Assembly: GCF_009833495.1 (NCBI RefSeq)
Contig: NZ_WUWG01000003.1
Span: 1 to 64,000 of the forward strand
From: Oceanomicrobium pacificus
GTDB lineage: Bacteria; Pseudomonadota; Alphaproteobacteria; Rhodobacterales; Rhodobacteraceae
Direction of reading: 5' to 3'
Length of the DNA: 64,000 nucleotides
Every line of letters starts with the position of its first letter. The first letter of the stretch is position 1. Positions 28,488-38,528 of this stretch are shown here, piece after piece. The notes beneath the pieces are model-generated. The model was not told where the DNA came from. It was given only the letters and a program-made list of their open reading frames with translations, and searched no databases. Made by a program: the position numbers and the translations under genes.

Positions 28488-29213
28488 TCATCCGGTCGCT
28501 TGCCATCGCGAGACATAGTCGCCCTGTAGCGCCTTACCGGTCCCATGCGACGCTGACTTGCGCACCGCGTAGAAAAGGTAGCTGCGTTGCGGCGTGAGTT
28601 TGCCACGCGCTCGAACGCGGTTTCCTGTTCCGGTCGGGTCCTCGATGCGCCAAGGCTTGTCGCGCGGGCGCTCCGGGATCAGCATGCAATCGATAAGTTC
28701 GCAGTTGCAAGCGCGGACCCAGAAGGCAAACACCAGTTCCGGACTGAACTGGTAGAAGCCATGCCCGAACCAGTTGTTGCCGGGTGCCATGGACATGAAT
28801 ATGCCGCCGTCTTTCAGGAGCCGATATGCGTTCGTCATGGATGTCTTTACATCGAAGACATGCTCCAATGTGCCGCCATCGAAAACGAAGTCGTATGTGC
28901 CTTCCAAAGAGTCCGGGATCGGGTCGTTCAGGTCGTGCACATGGGTTGCGCCTTCGAAGTCCGAAAAGTCGAGGCTGTCGACTTGCCCGGCGCCGAGTGC
29001 GCGAAACAACGGCTCGGTGTATCCCTCTGGATCGGAGAGTTGGCTTAAAGGCGTTCGCTGACCTATTTGTCGTAAGCGCTGTTCCGCAAGCGTCTTGAAA
29101 TGCGGCCGGGTGATATGCAGCTTTTGACGGCCAAGCATCACCATCGTGAAGTTCGGCTCGAGATGAGGCGTGATACTCAGGAGTTGCGTCAGAACTGCAA
29201 TATCTATTCCCAT
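28488..29213 (-). CDS. Methyltransferase-like protein, glycan island
   Basis: A 241-residue protein. The core YDFVFDGGTLEHVFDVKTSMTNAYRLLKDGGIFMSMAPGNNW matches the motif II to post-III region of class I SAM methyltransferases, but the glycine-rich motif I is not recognisable in its expected place (RALGAGQVDSLDFSDF), so SAM binding may be altered. A Cys/Glu-rich segment follows. Last gene of a minus-strand run beginning near 33600. Probably modifies a surface sugar, or is a scaffold derived from such an enzyme. Confidence 0.65.
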   Translation of the reverse strand: MGIDIAVLTQLLSITPHLEPNFTMVMLGRQKLHITRPHFKTLAEQRLRQIGQRTPLSQLSDPEGYTEPLFRALGAGQVDSLDFSDFEGATHVHDLNDPIPDSLEGTYDFVFDGGTLEHVFDVKTSMTNAYRLLKDGGIFMSMAPGNNWFGHGFYQFSPELVFAFWVRACNCELIDCMLIPERPRDKPWRIEDPTGTGNRVRARGKLTPQRSYLFYAVRKSASHGTGKALQGDYVSRWQATG

Positions 29214-29222
29214 CGGATGTTC

Positions 29223-29894
29223 CTAAACTTTGTGCACCACAAGAACCTGGTCCTTTCGGCGCTTCAGGAATTTAGCCTGGAACAAAAAACACCCACTAAA
29301 TGTATTGGATATTTCGTTGAACGCTTCTTGCAGTCCGGAAACAGGATGCGTGAATGAATTGGTCTCCAGATACTCGCCGAAGAGCGCAGCAGTTTTTGGA
29401 TAACCGCGTGTTTCATAGACAGGGGGCTGCCAACGAAGATCTTCAATAATGTAGAGGCCGCCGGACTTAAGCTTTGGAAAAAGATGGACAAATGCATGTT
29501 GCTGATGATGCGACGCATGACTGGCATCATCGATGATGATGTCAAAAGCCTCTTGCTCGGCCGCAACCTCTGCGATCTCGACCTCGTTGTCCATGTTGCA
29601 CCTGATGAAGGTGAAGCGCGGATCCGAGAACCATGAAAAGTCCGATACATCCAATCCGGTGATATGCGCTTTTCTGAAATACTCCAGCCACATACGCACC
29701 GAAGGAAGATCCGTCGTCTGCCGGTCGACGGACCGTTCGTGTTCAGGACCTCCGATCTGAAGGCCCATCTCCAGAAACCTGATGTCCCTGTCGCGAAATG
29801 GGGCAAAGAGCATGTGATAGAGTTCAGTATATCTGTGCTTTCCCGGTCCCTTGTCAGACCCGAACTTTTCGGCCAGTGCGGATAGGTCATTCAT
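29223..29894 (-). CDS. Class I SAM-dependent methyltransferase (macrocin/mycinamicin O-methyltransferase-like)
   Basis: A 223-residue enzyme. ALAEKFGSDKGPGKHRYTELYHMLF is the characteristic N-terminal signature of sugar O-methyltransferases resembling macrocin and mycinamicin methylases. IRFLEMGLQIGGPE is motif I, ITGLDVSDFSWF the acidic strand-2 end, and FDIIIDDASHASHHQQHAFVHLFPKLKSGGLYIIEDL carries the paired Asp metal site and the His. The gene is visibly AT-richer than its surroundings (for example 29281-29340). Overlaps the upstream glycosyltransferase stop by 8 bases. Likely O-methylates a surface-glycan sugar. Confidence 0.82.
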   Translation of the reverse strand: MNDLSALAEKFGSDKGPGKHRYTELYHMLFAPFRDRDIRFLEMGLQIGGPEHERSVDRQTTDLPSVRMWLEYFRKAHITGLDVSDFSWFSDPRFTFIRCNMDNEVEIAEVAAEQEAFDIIIDDASHASHHQQHAFVHLFPKLKSGGLYIIEDLRWQPPVYETRGYPKTAALFGEYLETNSFTHPVSGLQEAFNEISNTFSGCFLFQAKFLKRRKDQVLVVHKV

Positions 29895-30744
29895 CTTGGG
29901 TCTCAGTGTCTTTCGTCGGAATGGGCGCTTGCTCGGGATCTATGCCATGCTTTTCAAGCAGGACATCCATGTAACTGCCCGGCTCCGGTCGCCCGCCGAT
30001 ATGGCTCAAACGAGCTCTGATACGGCGTCCATAGAAATGCACGGAATAGGTTGAATCGAGAACCCGACGGGCAACGCGTTCTAGCGCTTTGGATTTGGTC
30101 AGCATCCGGCGGCGTTGGAACGGGATAGGATAGAGACCGCTCGTCGGCTGGGCAAATCTGTCTTCGCCGGTTTGTTTCAGGTGCCATGTGATGGCGTGGG
30201 GTCCCCAGACGCCCCAGGGCATCTCGCTGACATGTGTCGGTTCACCCGCGGCGGCGCGCGCGCGCATCCGCTCTTTCACCGGCTCTGAAAACCACGGCGG
30301 AATACCGTACTCGTCATTGGTCATATCCATGAGCGCTTGAAGTGCAGGACTGTTCTGCGGCAGTCCCAAAACGCCACCGTTGATATGGTGATCGGACTCC
30401 CAGCCGAAAAAATGACCTGTCTCAGTCTCGAACGGGCGAACGCAATAGGCGTCTGTGTCGGCCCAGATCACGTTGTTGGACTGGGCAAGCAGCCGGTATC
30501 GGAACACGTCGGAGAATAGTGCCAGGCTTCCGGTCCGGCCATGGGTGATGAACTGGTCGATATCGAGAACCGCGCGCCCGTCGCGCAACTCGGCAGCTTT
30601 GGGCACATTTTCTACCGGTCCGTAGTGATAGAGGATGGTCCGGTGCCCCGCGTCGATGAACGACTGGATGCAGAGTTGTTCGACATAGCTGAGTGGGCCT
30701 TCAACCCACAGCATGCAGATCGTTGGCAAGCTGCTATTTATCAT
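29887..30744 (-). CDS. Glycosyltransferase with DXD motif (capsular polysaccharide/GT32-like)
   Basis: A 285-residue putative transferase. LPTICMLWVEGPLSYVEQLCIQSFIDAGHRTILYHY is the start of a nucleotide-sugar fold, and NVIWADTDAYCVRPFE gives the metal-binding Asp-x-Asp followed by the YCVRP segment common in GT32-type and capsule enzymes. DHHINGGVLGLPQNSPAL is the acceptor-side loop. Start by ATGA overlap with the sulfotransferase-like gene upstream. No transmembrane segments, so cytoplasmic assembly of a repeat unit is likely. Confidence 0.75.
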   Translation of the reverse strand: MINSSLPTICMLWVEGPLSYVEQLCIQSFIDAGHRTILYHYGPVENVPKAAELRDGRAVLDIDQFITHGRTGSLALFSDVFRYRLLAQSNNVIWADTDAYCVRPFETETGHFFGWESDHHINGGVLGLPQNSPALQALMDMTNDEYGIPPWFSEPVKERMRARAAAGEPTHVSEMPWGVWGPHAITWHLKQTGEDRFAQPTSGLYPIPFQRRRMLTKSKALERVARRVLDSTYSVHFYGRRIRARLSHIGGRPEPGSYMDVLLEKHGIDPEQAPIPTKDTETQDE

Positions 30745-31727
30745 AGGATTTCATCCGCCAAATCTGTTGTGCCACTCGTGTTCAAGATCCGACTCCAGTC
30801 CTTTTCATACAATCGTCTGAGATGGTCCCGCTCATGTTGTTTCCAGGGGTCGAAACGTTCAAATGTCTCTCCGCGCGGGTACTTGTCCTGAAATTCCTGC
30901 CGTCGCTCAATTGCGGCATCGGCACCGTGGGCTGCTGCGTATTCTTCGATAGCGTCGATTGCCCGCTGGGATGCGGACGGGCGGGACGATTTCCCCGTCG
31001 GGACCTTGATCCGATCAGGCGGCATTTGACCCTCGGTCATATGCTCGAAAATCTTCATGAACCGGTCTTTCATATCCTCATAGCGCCAGACGAAAAGCTG
31101 TGCATCGGGTGCTCGCTTTCGTAATAGCGCAAGGCAATCGGACCAATTAGGTGGGTGCTCCAGCACATTCTGGCACATCCGACGGTAGGGTATGTATTTG
31201 TATCCGTTCGCAGACCGGACAAATTCGACATAGGCCGAGGCAAAAAAATCGGGGTAGGAGCGGATACAAAAGTAAATCCGGTCGGCCCGGACCGGCAGGT
31301 GGTCGAAGAAGATTTCCGAAAAAATCTCGCGCCGCGGATACAGGGTTCCCTGTCGCGCGCACTGACCGCAATGTCCGAACAGGTTTTCTTCCGAAATCAG
31401 AATCCTTTCGCCCGTTTCAATTGGCAGAAGATGCGAAAACGTATCTATACGGGCGGTCAAGTCTGCCTCCGTTACGGTCGGATCATAGTCGAGCCCCAAG
31501 ATGTCATAGGCGCGATACTGGCAGGGCACCGTGTAGCCTTTGCGGACGTGGCGGTGATGGATGTAGTGCAGGCCACGCTTGGCGAGCGCGCCACTGTTGC
31601 GGCGCAGCAGTCGTTGCAGAGAGGTTGTGCCGGTTTTGTGCGCACCGGCATGAAGCGTCAACCGGGTCCCGTTTGAGAATTCAGGCAACCTCCGCGATCC
31701 TTTCGGCAAAAGCCGACCAGTCAGCAT
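30741..31727 (-). CDS. Sulfotransferase-like protein
   Basis: A 328-residue protein. RLTLHAGAHKTGTTSLQRLL carries a P-loop-like 5'-phosphosulfate-binding motif (HKTGTT) at the N-terminus, and IYFCIRSYPDFFASAYVEFVRS matches the 3'-phosphate-binding Arg/Ser region. This is the layout of PAPS-dependent sulfotransferases, though non-canonical. A glycan or lipid would be the acceptor, using cytoplasmic PAPS. The ATG at 31727 makes it overlap the upstream fusion gene by 47 bases; a shorter start near the HAGAHKTG strand cannot be excluded. A sulfated surface glycan would suit a marine organism. Confidence 0.65.
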   Translation of the reverse strand: MLTGRLLPKGSRRLPEFSNGTRLTLHAGAHKTGTTSLQRLLRRNSGALAKRGLHYIHHRHVRKGYTVPCQYRAYDILGLDYDPTVTEADLTARIDTFSHLLPIETGERILISEENLFGHCGQCARQGTLYPRREIFSEIFFDHLPVRADRIYFCIRSYPDFFASAYVEFVRSANGYKYIPYRRMCQNVLEHPPNWSDCLALLRKRAPDAQLFVWRYEDMKDRFMKIFEHMTEGQMPPDRIKVPTGKSSRPSASQRAIDAIEEYAAAHGADAAIERRQEFQDKYPRGETFERFDPWKQHERDHLRRLYEKDWSRILNTSGTTDLADEIL

Positions 31728-33585
31728 CGTCGACCAATCCGGCGATGCGGCTGCGGTGCCAGTCGCACGCCTTTGCGTGAAAGTCTCGCAATGCGCGATC
31801 CTCCATCAGCGGACCGATGGCGTGCTCGATCTCTGGACTCCGCTCCCGCAATGCCGTGTCGCGTTCTGTATTGATGTTCATGTCCGTCCAGTAGTCGAGT
31901 CCCTGATCCTGGTCGAAATGGTTCGTCCGCCCGCGATCACGCTTCACGAGGAAGCTTTCTACGGAACGGACCGCGTAATGATGGAGCCGGGCCAGATCAT
32001 GGCGGAAGCCCGAATAGGCGCTCCACCCCCGCGTGAAATAGCCCTCCGGCATTGGTTGCCCGCCCGCGTCCACCCATTTCGGCATCGGCGCGGTCGGCGT
32101 CAGCGCTGGCCGGTGCACGCGCAGGCGCTCGAGCGCAGTCGTATTGCGCGCCAGCGTCTTCAATCCGGTCGACTTGTAGGTTTTGAACTCCAACTCCCCC
32201 GCGCACGCGGTGAACTGGCTGGTGATCGGGCGGTCCTCGTAGGCAACGATTCCGTCATTGCCGAAGAGTTTCCAGCAGAAGGAAAAAATGTCCGCATCCG
32301 GTACCGCAGCAAACAGGGCATCGAGCGTGCCGTCGCCTGTGCGGATGTTCAGGAACTCGTCACAATCCATACAGGTCAGCCAACCGGATCGCTGGTATTG
32401 CGGGTGCTGGGGCACGCGGCGCAGTGCCACCCTTTGGGGTCCGAGATGTTTCGGAACTTCGTTCCGCACATGATGGACGAGGCCCATCTCCTGAAGCCTG
32501 TCGGCGATCAGATCGGTGCCGTCGGCGCAGTCATTCGTGAAGATGATGAAATCGGTGAACCCGATCATCCGGTTGAAGGCAATCCATTCGAGCATGAACG
32601 GACCTTCGTTTTTCATCGTGGTCACGATCGTGCGGACGTTCGGATCGGCGCCTTCGCGCAAGGCGAGTGCAGGCAGGGCCGTGTCGGACACGGCCGTCGG
32701 CGCCACGGCGGACGGCTCTGCCCGTTTGAGCGCGCGGAAGGCACGGGTCGCGCGGTTGGCCATCTCCTTGCGGTCGCGGTCGTTGAAATATTTCGACAGA
32801 CCGCCCCGGTACCAGGGCAGGCGCCGTCGCGCACGATAAAGCCCGTAGAAATCGCGCTCGGTCAGATCGCCGTGTAGCATTGCATGCATGACCGGTTTCA
32901 GAGCATCGATCTTGCGCAGGAAAACAGCCGATTTGTGGTTCGAGAACCAGCATTTGTAGCCTGTGACATTCGGGCCTTCGAGCCGTTCAAAGTGACGCCG
33001 GTCAGGTTCGAAGAACGGGTCGTAGAAGATGGCTGCATGCCCGAGCGCGCCGATGCCCTCGGCCGCATCCGACAGGGGCAAGGTCCAGTCCTGCCGCCGG
33101 CCGTTGAGGTAGCGTTCCTCCCACGGAACGAGCTCCTCGTCGAGCGTCGACTGCGGATTGAATGCGGCGACATGCGCCCCTGGAATGAGGCTGCCGAAGG
33201 CCAGCGCCGCATAGGCACCCATCGAGGATCCCGCCAGCAGCACACGGTCATATCCGTCAAAGAACCCGTCCGCTGCCAGAGCCTCGAACCGAGCGATCAG
33301 TTCGGGGTTGCGAAACCAGTCGGCAATATGGGCCATCACGCCCAGATGCGCGACATTCTCGTCCGAAGCGAACTTGTAGGCCCAAGGCGCCCGGTCAAGC
33401 GCGGTGTCTCCGACATTCGACAGATTGTCGAACGTGATGAGCAGCCGGTTCACGGGGCGCTTGACGAAGACCAGCGAATACCGCTCCTGCTTCTCAAAAA
33501 AACCTTCCCCCTGGCTGCGCGGATGCAGGTCGAGAAACCACTGTGGCAAGCTATCGCTGGAGGGCTCTGTGGAGGTTTTCGTCAT
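31681..33585 (-). CDS. Fusion of alpha/beta-hydrolase-like domain and glycosyltransferase family 2-like domain
   Basis: With the start at ATG 33585 the protein has 634 residues; the frame is open to 33720 and no start has a good ribosome-binding site. The N-terminal half (about 1-290) looks like an alpha/beta hydrolase: LLITFDNLSNVGD, then VLLAGSSMGAYAAL with the Ser nucleophile at about 121. The C-terminal half (about 315-634) is a GT2/GT92-like domain starting RTIVTTMKNEGPFMLEWIAFN, with metal motif MDCDEFLNI near 407-411 and an HHYAVRSVESFLVKRDRGR tail. First gene of the minus-strand glycan run. May deacylate and glycosylate the same substrate. Confidence 0.75.
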   Translation of the reverse strand: MTKTSTEPSSDSLPQWFLDLHPRSQGEGFFEKQERYSLVFVKRPVNRLLITFDNLSNVGDTALDRAPWAYKFASDENVAHLGVMAHIADWFRNPELIARFEALAADGFFDGYDRVLLAGSSMGAYAALAFGSLIPGAHVAAFNPQSTLDEELVPWEERYLNGRRQDWTLPLSDAAEGIGALGHAAIFYDPFFEPDRRHFERLEGPNVTGYKCWFSNHKSAVFLRKIDALKPVMHAMLHGDLTERDFYGLYRARRRLPWYRGGLSKYFNDRDRKEMANRATRAFRALKRAEPSAVAPTAVSDTALPALALREGADPNVRTIVTTMKNEGPFMLEWIAFNRMIGFTDFIIFTNDCADGTDLIADRLQEMGLVHHVRNEVPKHLGPQRVALRRVPQHPQYQRSGWLTCMDCDEFLNIRTGDGTLDALFAAVPDADIFSFCWKLFGNDGIVAYEDRPITSQFTACAGELEFKTYKSTGLKTLARNTTALERLRVHRPALTPTAPMPKWVDAGGQPMPEGYFTRGWSAYSGFRHDLARLHHYAVRSVESFLVKRDRGRTNHFDQDQGLDYWTDMNINTERDTALRERSPEIEHAIGPLMEDRALRDFHAKACDWHRSRIAGLVDDADWSAFAERIAEVA

Positions 33586-33804
33586 GGTCTTCGATTGTTG
33601 CGCCATCTGGTCGGGACAGTAGGGCAGGCACAGCATCGGGGCAACGGGCAATGGTTCGCCGTTGATGCTGGACATGACAGAAACTGTTGTCGCCAAGACA
33701 TGCTGAAGAGACCTTAACATCCGGATGCTTGCCCGGACGGCTGGTTTCGATCAGAAAAGGCTGTGCCCGCGACCGGCCGGGTCAGTTAAACAAGGCGCAG
33801 CCCC

Positions 33805-37411: not shown

Positions 37412-37442
37412 AACTTTTCACCCGCGCTGCAGGTTGGTCGGC

Positions 37443-38528
37443 ATGAGTGACAAAGACAGCCCGCCGGTTCTGGTCGACCTCGCCTTGCAGGGCGGGGGGA
37501 GCCACGGGGCGTTCACATGGGGCGTGCTTGACCGACTGCTGGAAGAGCCCGGCATACGCATCAATGCGCTGAGCGGCACCAGCGCGGGCGCTATGAATGC
37601 CTGCGCGGTTGTCGAGGGGCTCGCCAATGGCGGGCCGGAAGCCGCGCGCGACAATTTGCAGGCCTATTGGGAGGCGGTGGGGCAGGCGGCGCGGTTCAGC
37701 CCTTACCGGCGCTCGGCATTCGAGCGGATGACAGGCGGGTGGAGCCTTGCCAACTCGCCCGCCTTCGCCTGGGCCCGGACGATGCTGCGCTCCGTCTCGC
37801 CCTATGAATTCAATCCTTTCGACATCAATCCGTTACGTCCGATTGTCGAGGCGCAGTTCGATTTCGATGCCATCAACGATTGCCGCTCGGCCGATCTGTT
37901 CCTCTGCGCCACCAATGTGCGCACCGGTCGCCCGAAGATATTTCGGCAGGGCGAGATCACGGCCGATGCGGTGTTGGCCAGCGCCTGCCTGCCCTTTCTC
38001 AGCCAAGCGGTGGAGATCGACGGGGAGGCCTATTGGGACGGGGGCTATATGGGCAATCCGCCGCTCTTCCCGCTGATCGACGAGTCAGAAGCGCGTGACC
38101 TGATCATCGTCCAGATCAACCCCGTGGAGCGCGCCGGCGTGCCGCGAACCGCATGGGAGATCGACGACCGGCTGAACGAGATCACCTTCAATTCCAGCCT
38201 GATCAAGGAGTTGCGGGCGCTCTTCCTCCTGTCGGAGACCATCCGCGAAGGCGGACTGGAACGCGAGGCCTATCGCGATGCGCGGCTGCACCTGATCGCC
38301 GACACCGACGAACTGCCATCGCTCGGCGCGTCGACAAAAATGAACGCGGAGCCCGAATTTCTCGACCATCTGCATGATCTGGGGCGGCGCACGGCAGACA
38401 AATGGCTGGCCGACCACGGGGCCAAGCTCGGGCGGAACTCGAGCTACACGCCCGATTTCGTCTTCGAGGAAAGCCTAATGCCTGCGCATCTCGAAAACGG
38501 CTTGCGGAAGAAAATGCGTCGGGGTTGA
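37443..38528 (+). CDS. Patatin-like phospholipase
   Basis: A 361-residue lipid acyl hydrolase. The oxyanion hole LQGGGSHGAFTWG, the Ser nucleophile in LSGTSAGAMNA and the catalytic Asp in YWDGGYMGNPPLFPL give the Ser-Asp dyad of patatins. The domain spans roughly residues 10-215; the C-terminal 130 residues are helical without a known motif. No signal peptide, so a cytoplasmic or membrane-associated lipase. Start ATG 37443. Confidence 0.9.
   Translation: MSDKDSPPVLVDLALQGGGSHGAFTWGVLDRLLEEPGIRINALSGTSAGAMNACAVVEGLANGGPEAARDNLQAYWEAVGQAARFSPYRRSAFERMTGGWSLANSPAFAWARTMLRSVSPYEFNPFDINPLRPIVEAQFDFDAINDCRSADLFLCATNVRTGRPKIFRQGEITADAVLASACLPFLSQAVEIDGEAYWDGGYMGNPPLFPLIDESEARDLIIVQINPVERAGVPRTAWEIDDRLNEITFNSSLIKELRALFLLSETIREGGLEREAYRDARLHLIADTDELPSLGASTKMNAEPEFLDHLHDLGRRTADKWLADHGAKLGRNSSYTPDFVFEESLMPAHLENGLRKKMRRG

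Follow-up and report, generated by a model that had tools for sequence, protein, structure and literature searches.

What does an α/β-hydrolase-like domain contribute when it is joined, within one polypeptide, to a glycosyltransferase (GT)? The question is raised by a gene at positions 31681-33585 of a 64,000-nucleotide stretch of the Oceanomicrobium pacificus genome (contig NZ_WUWG01000003.1, positions 1 to 64,000; hereafter the window). According to its open reading frame (ORF), Pfam matches and orthologue alignment, this gene encodes a protein of 634 amino acids (aa) in which an acyltransferase-like α/β-hydrolase domain is followed by a glycosyltransferase of the GT92/PF13704 type. The reading that we favour, and to which we assign a probability of about 0.62, is that the N-terminal domain (N-domain) is a carbohydrate O-acyltransferase tethered to the glycosyltransferase, acylating the glycan that the latter extends. 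It is preferred over an esterase because of the predicted fold, a glutamine 24 residues after the candidate nucleophile (Ser+24), a histidine 3 residues after the candidate acid (Asp+3) and the gene context. The fused gene, the parts and residues of its product and the operon neighbours given below all lie on the minus strand.

Read on that strand, from 33585 to 31681, the gene is a single open frame of 634 residues free of internal stops, and the plus strand across 31681-33585 is interrupted by a stop. The frame holds both the GSSMG (residues 119-123) and the MDCDEF (residues 406-411) motifs, as an earlier note on this DNA, made from the sequence alone, had claimed without naming the strand. 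Scanning 84,980 species genomes yielded 70 related loci, 40 of which, mostly in Roseovarius and relatives and including L066 of Roseovarius nubinhibens, have the same N-to-C order as the window. Since the fusion is conserved to this extent, it is not a sequencing join, and the frameshift or mis-join of two genes that the note had considered can be ruled out. An alternative in-frame ATG at 33720 would lengthen the protein to 679 aa, but the start at 33585 coincides with the aligned start of most orthologues (alignment A1, 29 rows) and is favoured; in the same alignment, the fused protein, which is present as a single copy in its own genome, shares 51-57% overall identity with 28 orthologues. 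Pfam names the C-half only, the N-half matches neither a Pfam nor an NCBIfam family, and no NCBIfam family was matched on the fused protein. Between the halves runs a linker (32638-32718) that varies in length and sequence among orthologues and whose predicted local distance difference test score (pLDDT) falls below 50 at residues 293-302. For the whole protein, the model reached a mean pLDDT of 83.9 and a predicted template modelling score (pTM) of 0.56; such a low pTM, together with the linker, fits two tethered domains.

Structure prediction, which the earlier note had proposed as a check, folds the N-half confidently. Modelled alone, the N-domain (residues 14-289; 32719-33546), as delimited by model, alignment and fold search, gave a mean pLDDT of 92.7 and a pTM of 0.90, and the model is a complete α/β-hydrolase fold resembling that of CsaC (SacC/MynC), the capsule O-acetyltransferase of Neisseria meningitidis serogroup A (PDB 6yuo, 6yuq, 6yus, 6yuv). 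Indeed, CsaC (6yuo) was the first-ranked Foldseek match of the isolated domain (E 6.9e-7). The VIA comparison placed four CsaC entries at ranks 2, 3, 5 and 6 (Z 13.5-13.9, 197-205 residues aligned, 3.8-4.1 Å), behind chain 6oyc_B of the Gap123 complex (Z 14.7, 209 aligned, 3.5 Å), which we take to be Gap2, a homologue of Asp2.

The candidate catalytic residues point in the same direction. They were counted over the 106 distinct N-domain segments found in the related loci (at least 170 aa and at least 25 bits, identical ones counted once), 41 of them in N-GT and 12 in GT-N order, which makes 53 fused copies, and 53 without a recognised GT half. By sequence and by the order of the elements, the N-domain has a GXSXG elbow and a Ser-Asp-His triad. 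Ser121 of GSSMG (33223-33225), the putative nucleophile, is found in 53/53 fused and 37/53 stand-alone copies, and His217 (32935-32937), the putative general base, in 90/106, being absent only where Ser121 is absent. Gln145 (33151-33153), at Ser+24, accompanies Ser and His in 90/90 copies and persists in 13 of the 16 that lack them. Arg158 (33112-33114) is invariant (106/106), whereas the Asp195-x-x-His198 element (32992-33003) is invariant at D195 (106/106) and nearly so at H198 (100/106). All 53 fused copies retain Ser121, Gln145, Asp195 and His217 together. Asp189, which is equally invariant (106/106), was considered as the catalytic acid and set aside; D195 is probably the acid, because its spacing from the serine (74 residues) matches that in ORF5 of the Escherichia coli K15 capsule region and its D-x-x-H context matches CsaC.

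In CsaC, the triad Ser114/Asp198/His228 is extended by Gln138 and His201, an arginine of the lid, Arg148, positions the acceptor, and the reaction is described as a double displacement via an acyl-serine (PMC7501274). According to the same source, Gln138 is unique to CsaC and required for its transfer activity. The N-domain has the same order of elements, namely Ser, Gln, Arg, Asp-x-x-His and His. The Ser-to-Gln spacing is +24 in both proteins (114 to 138 in CsaC, 121 to 145 here), the histidine of the D-x-x-H element is at Asp+3 in both (198/201 and 195/198) and, judging by order, Arg158 would take the place of the acceptor-binding Arg148.

One capsule protein was matched over a segment at the sequence level. 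OatC, CsaC and, by prediction, ORF5 of E. coli K15 have been grouped into an α/β-hydrolase family of capsular O-acetyltransferases (PMC7387560). In E. coli 536, a K15 gene annotated as 'alpha/beta hydrolase' adjoins capsule genes, and we take it to be this ORF5 because place, length and motif agree. An alignment of the N-domain profile with it gave an hhalign probability of 95.3 (E 2.2e-8, 107 columns). With HMMER it scored 25.3 bits and was the only one to pass the inclusion threshold among 13 proteins of the capsule region; the same profile reached at most 19.6 bits against 177,635 PDB sequences. The segment common to the N-domain family and ORF5 is GGSMGGYAAL...INPQTSL, whose NPQ supplies the glutamine; the Ser-to-Gln (24) and Ser-to-Asp (74) distances are identical in both.

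The C-half (residues 317-630; 31696-32637) is, by Pfam and predicted fold, a GT-A enzyme of the PF13704/GT92 type with a DCDE motif, for which sugar transfer is predicted. In the region of residues 325-480, PF13704 scored 61.1 bits (cut-off 27.5) and PF01697 (GT92) 23.9 bits, barely above its cut-off of 23. The putative metal/nucleotide-sugar motif DCD (D407 and D409; 32359-32367) belongs to a stretch in which D407, D409 and E410 are invariant in A1. The fusion of an α/β-hydrolase-type half to a GT92/GT2-like half, as the earlier note had read the protein, is thus borne out by both Pfam families and by the fold model of the N-half.

The strongest sign that the N-domain acts on the same glycan as the operon around it is that, in other species, it is, as far as similarity can tell, joined to proteins related to the products of its own operon neighbours. 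Among long N-domain ORFs without a GT92 half, 14 have mutually similar partner regions, most of them matching the DXD glycosyltransferase-like gene of the window (38-48% identity over 267-279 residues in nine; short or no match in the others). Three more carry a sulfotransferase-like partner weakly similar to that of the window (E 3e-5 to 6e-7), and another three, two of which are identical stretches, an unnamed C-terminal partner of 450-470 aa for which Pfam and PDB searches gave no match (L107:64-1479, L112:109-1464). On a tree of 59 domains, six changes between fused and unfused states are needed, and the GT-N order must have arisen at least three times, as forced by the starred branches. 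Joins of N-domain and GT in several arrangements, found in many marine bacteria, suggest that the two may take part in making and modifying one and the same surface sugar.

In Rhodobacteraceae, this architecture is not a rarity; it merely lacks annotation. The N-domain was found in 151 of the 198 genomes drawn from the family of the window; the family profile matched in 10/289 genomes of the class draw and in 27/299 of the phylum draw, all three draws including the genome of the window, and in the latter two, matches below E 1e-60 were confined to that family. Where relatives are annotated, some of them on plasmids, the name given is no more than 'glycosyltransferase family 2 protein' or 'hypothetical protein'. 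In other classes, the neighbours of distant relatives are mixed (for example EarP, GT4, alpha-mannosidase, FAD synthetase), without a clear shared theme; one of these relatives adjoins earP, encoding the EF-P rhamnosyltransferase (L180:5479-7613). A link to the rhamnose 'biofilm' plasmids of roseobacters was considered and not adopted; one GT-N copy does stand next to rfbABCD and a GT61 gene, on a plasmid of Loktanella. GT92-like proteins of about 750-850 aa (L008:2440-3714, L130:6971-8341 and similar) have N-terminal parts of 380-480 aa without a Pfam match; between the L130-type part and the sulfotransferase-like partner in L108 there is weak similarity (E 2e-6). Roseobacter-type fusions or matches also occur in L060, titled a Blastopirellula metagenome-assembled genome, and on plasmid NZ_CP061939.1, titled Bacillus velezensis, probably through mis-binning or mislabelling.

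In the window, the fused gene opens a compact series of genes that share its strand. Its end is overlapped by a sulfotransferase-like gene (30741-31727; weak PF00685 match, below cut-off), followed with a 4-base overlap by the DXD glycosyltransferase-like gene (29887-30744; GT32-like, from a weak Pfam match on a homologue) and with an 8-base overlap by a methyltransferase-like gene (29223-29894), which in many relatives is fused to the preceding one. A methyltransferase gene (28488-29213; PF08241 at 23.9 bits, cut-off 21.2) is probably the fifth member. The sulfotransferase-like family directly follows the fused gene in 39/40 loci, one of the 41 fused loci having been left out for lack of room to see the next gene. 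The exception is L061 from Roseovarius gahaiensis, in which the GT half is split into two ORFs of 513 and 200 aa, by decay or by sequence error (L061:5866-8022). Homologues of the DXD gene and of the methyltransferase gene lie within 6 kb in 31 and 29, respectively, of 34 fused loci. Of the 29 N-domain loci taken from the family draw, which include two N-GT fusions (one of them that of the window), 23 had a match of the GT92, sulfotransferase or DXD-GT type in the same ORF or within 1.5 kb, as compared with one of 100 control tiles of 3.8 kb taken from 20 stretches of seven genomes of the family. Because housekeeping genes (clpB, pyrF, a glutamate-synthase-like gene and msrP) flank many Roseovarius loci, the cluster is a small island. 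The operon contains no export genes; the contig does carry Kps-type and Wza-type export genes, at a distance of about 90-120 kb, which makes a capsule acceptor possible. Elsewhere in the window, 37434-38528 carries the motifs GGGSHGAFTWG and GTSAG and presumably encodes a patatin-type lipase.

The main rival makes the N-domain an esterase or de-O-acylase of carbohydrates, which would remove or proofread acyl groups of the sugar acceptor, either ahead of glycosyl transfer or after it. We consider this rather unlikely, even though several points weigh against an O-acyltransferase and most of them in favour of an esterase. A common fold by itself proves no function, and the fold list consists mostly of esterases, within about 1 Z of CsaC: plain esterases appear in VIA at Z 12.6-13.8 (12.6 at rank 50), tied with CsaC. 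The full triad and the GXSXG would suit such an enzyme. When the PDB was searched with sequence profiles at E up to 10, CsaC was not recovered and esterases came out on top. PF00756 (Esterase) was matched in 35/61 members at E up to 1, the best at 3.7e-5, and Asp2 (PF16929) in 12/61. Moreover, the match to K15 ORF5 is limited to the segment from the elbow to NPQ (about 60-107 residues; 59 in HMMER), and ORF5 has an aspartate at Asp+3, where the N-domain has a histidine. On the other hand, no esterase family exceeded its Pfam cut-off in the tabled members, whose PF00756 scores of 12.0-21.0 bits compare with a cut-off of 22, although the best member lies outside the table and may pass; the N-domain of the window itself has no PF00756 match. 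PF16929 did not reach its cut-off of 28 either (best E 0.014, tabled scores 10.6-12.9 bits). The CsaC-type glutamine, constant wherever Ser and His are kept, is lacking at Ser+24 in the aligned stretch of the best esterase match, 4b6g. The closest functional match of the N-domain is CsaC, not a hydrolase, and the 'deacylase or esterase' of the earlier note, while possible, is not the best supported reading.

The inactive recognition module that was proposed as another option, that is, a catalytically dead domain for carbohydrate binding or scaffolding, is very improbable for the fused protein and was rejected on the conservation of the triad in every fused copy, that of the window included. 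It fits better a part of the stand-alone copies, 16 of 53, from which Ser and His are both missing; these copies form one separate clade. Least probable of all is that the acyl group differs (succinyl or fatty acyl, for example) or that, in place of a capsule-type polysaccharide, the acceptor is a glycolipid or the glycan of a protein: neither donor nor acceptor is fixed by the present results, the export genes are remote from the operon and the Gap123 complex belongs to a protein-glycan machinery, but CsaC and the K15-type relatives act on capsule (the latter by prediction) and nothing points to any specific alternative donor.

The triad-less branch deserves separate mention. Loss of Ser or His alone was observed in no case, and the clade (support 99) is explained by a single change on the tree, a quick one with Shimodaira-Hasegawa-like approximate likelihood ratio (SH-aLRT) support only, built from domains of at least 220 aa that are less than 75% identical, the remaining segments having been dropped. 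Since D189, Asp195, His198 and Arg158 are kept in 16/16 of these copies, the fold appears to have a purpose without the triad, and the branch is, to judge from its residues, a conserved pseudo-enzyme. In copies such as L130:10446-11432, L131:9361-10368 and those of L133-L136, L146 and L149, GAGPCGY replaces GXSMGGY. The triad-less copies sit downstream of two or three GT92-like genes, and homologues of pyrC, pyrE and dnaB come next in many of these loci.

Taken as an O-acyltransferase fusion, the protein would be a two-domain, probably cytoplasmic enzyme of glycan building. Its GT-A domain would use a nucleotide donor to add a sugar to a surface glycan under construction. The N-domain would act as a serine O-acyltransferase, most likely an O-acetyltransferase, in which Ser121, activated by His217 and Asp195 and positioned by Gln145 and His198, may accept an acyl group, probably from acetyl-CoA. 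The acyl would then be passed to a hydroxyl of the same glycan, held with the help of Arg158, and further decoration of this glycan would fall to the other products of the operon, namely the sulfotransferase-like protein, the second GT and the methyltransferases.

Among open-licence PubMed Central papers, we found none describing the combination of N-domain and GT. The statement of the earlier note that no characterised enzyme with this domain order was known therefore agrees with what we found in that literature: relatives with this architecture are many, and none was found characterised. PMC10299916, on multi-domain capsule polymerases, does not mention a hydrolase domain, and the same body of papers held nothing useful on a link to the gene-transfer-agent capsule of Rhodobacter. 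On the favoured reading, the setting is what is new: an acyltransferase domain of the CsaC kind occurs in a modular arrangement with glycosyltransferases. Whether the addition of a glutamine to the Ser-His-Asp triad is a general route from α/β-hydrolase esterase to transferase was left as an open question in PMC7501274; the present family supplies many members in which this glutamine is invariant as long as Ser and His are present, together with a branch that naturally lacks both. With somewhat more doubt than conviction, we would go further and suggest that Rhodobacteraceae possess a large unannotated family of Gln-extended serine O-acyltransferases, fused several times independently and in both orders to the GTs, sulfotransferases and further GT type of a single modular operon for glycan decoration, and including a branch from which Ser and His vanished in a single step, whereas the putative acceptor-binding residues stayed, so that it may now be a glycan-binding pseudo-transferase. 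If the O-acyltransferase assignment holds, it would help to name many proteins that at present carry just the label 'glycosyltransferase family 2 protein', and it would be a hint that common marine bacteria bear surface glycans with sulfate, methyl and acyl groups.

Each of the known systems shares a part of this arrangement. The GT half resembles GalS1 of poplar, a GT92 enzyme (8d3t/8d3z), in fold (Z 18.0, 231 aligned, 3.2 Å), but at 11% identity and with PF13704 as a better Pfam match than GT92. The predicted O-acetyltransferase ORF5 of K15 adjoins glycosyltransferase genes without being fused to them, and CsaC, for which acetyl transfer has been demonstrated, is a stand-alone protein, in contrast with the fused N-domain. 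Asp2/Gap2, the O-acetyltransferase of streptococcal serine-rich repeat glycoproteins and presumably the best VIA match of the N-domain, is described as having a Ser-Asp-His triad and acting on the same glycan as glycosyltransferases; it has an additional role in accessory Sec export. A coupling of chain growth and acetylation has been reported for Asp2 and its glycosyltransferases (PMC7948813), and because the fused protein carries an acyltransferase-like domain and a GT in one chain, such coupling becomes testable within a single protein.

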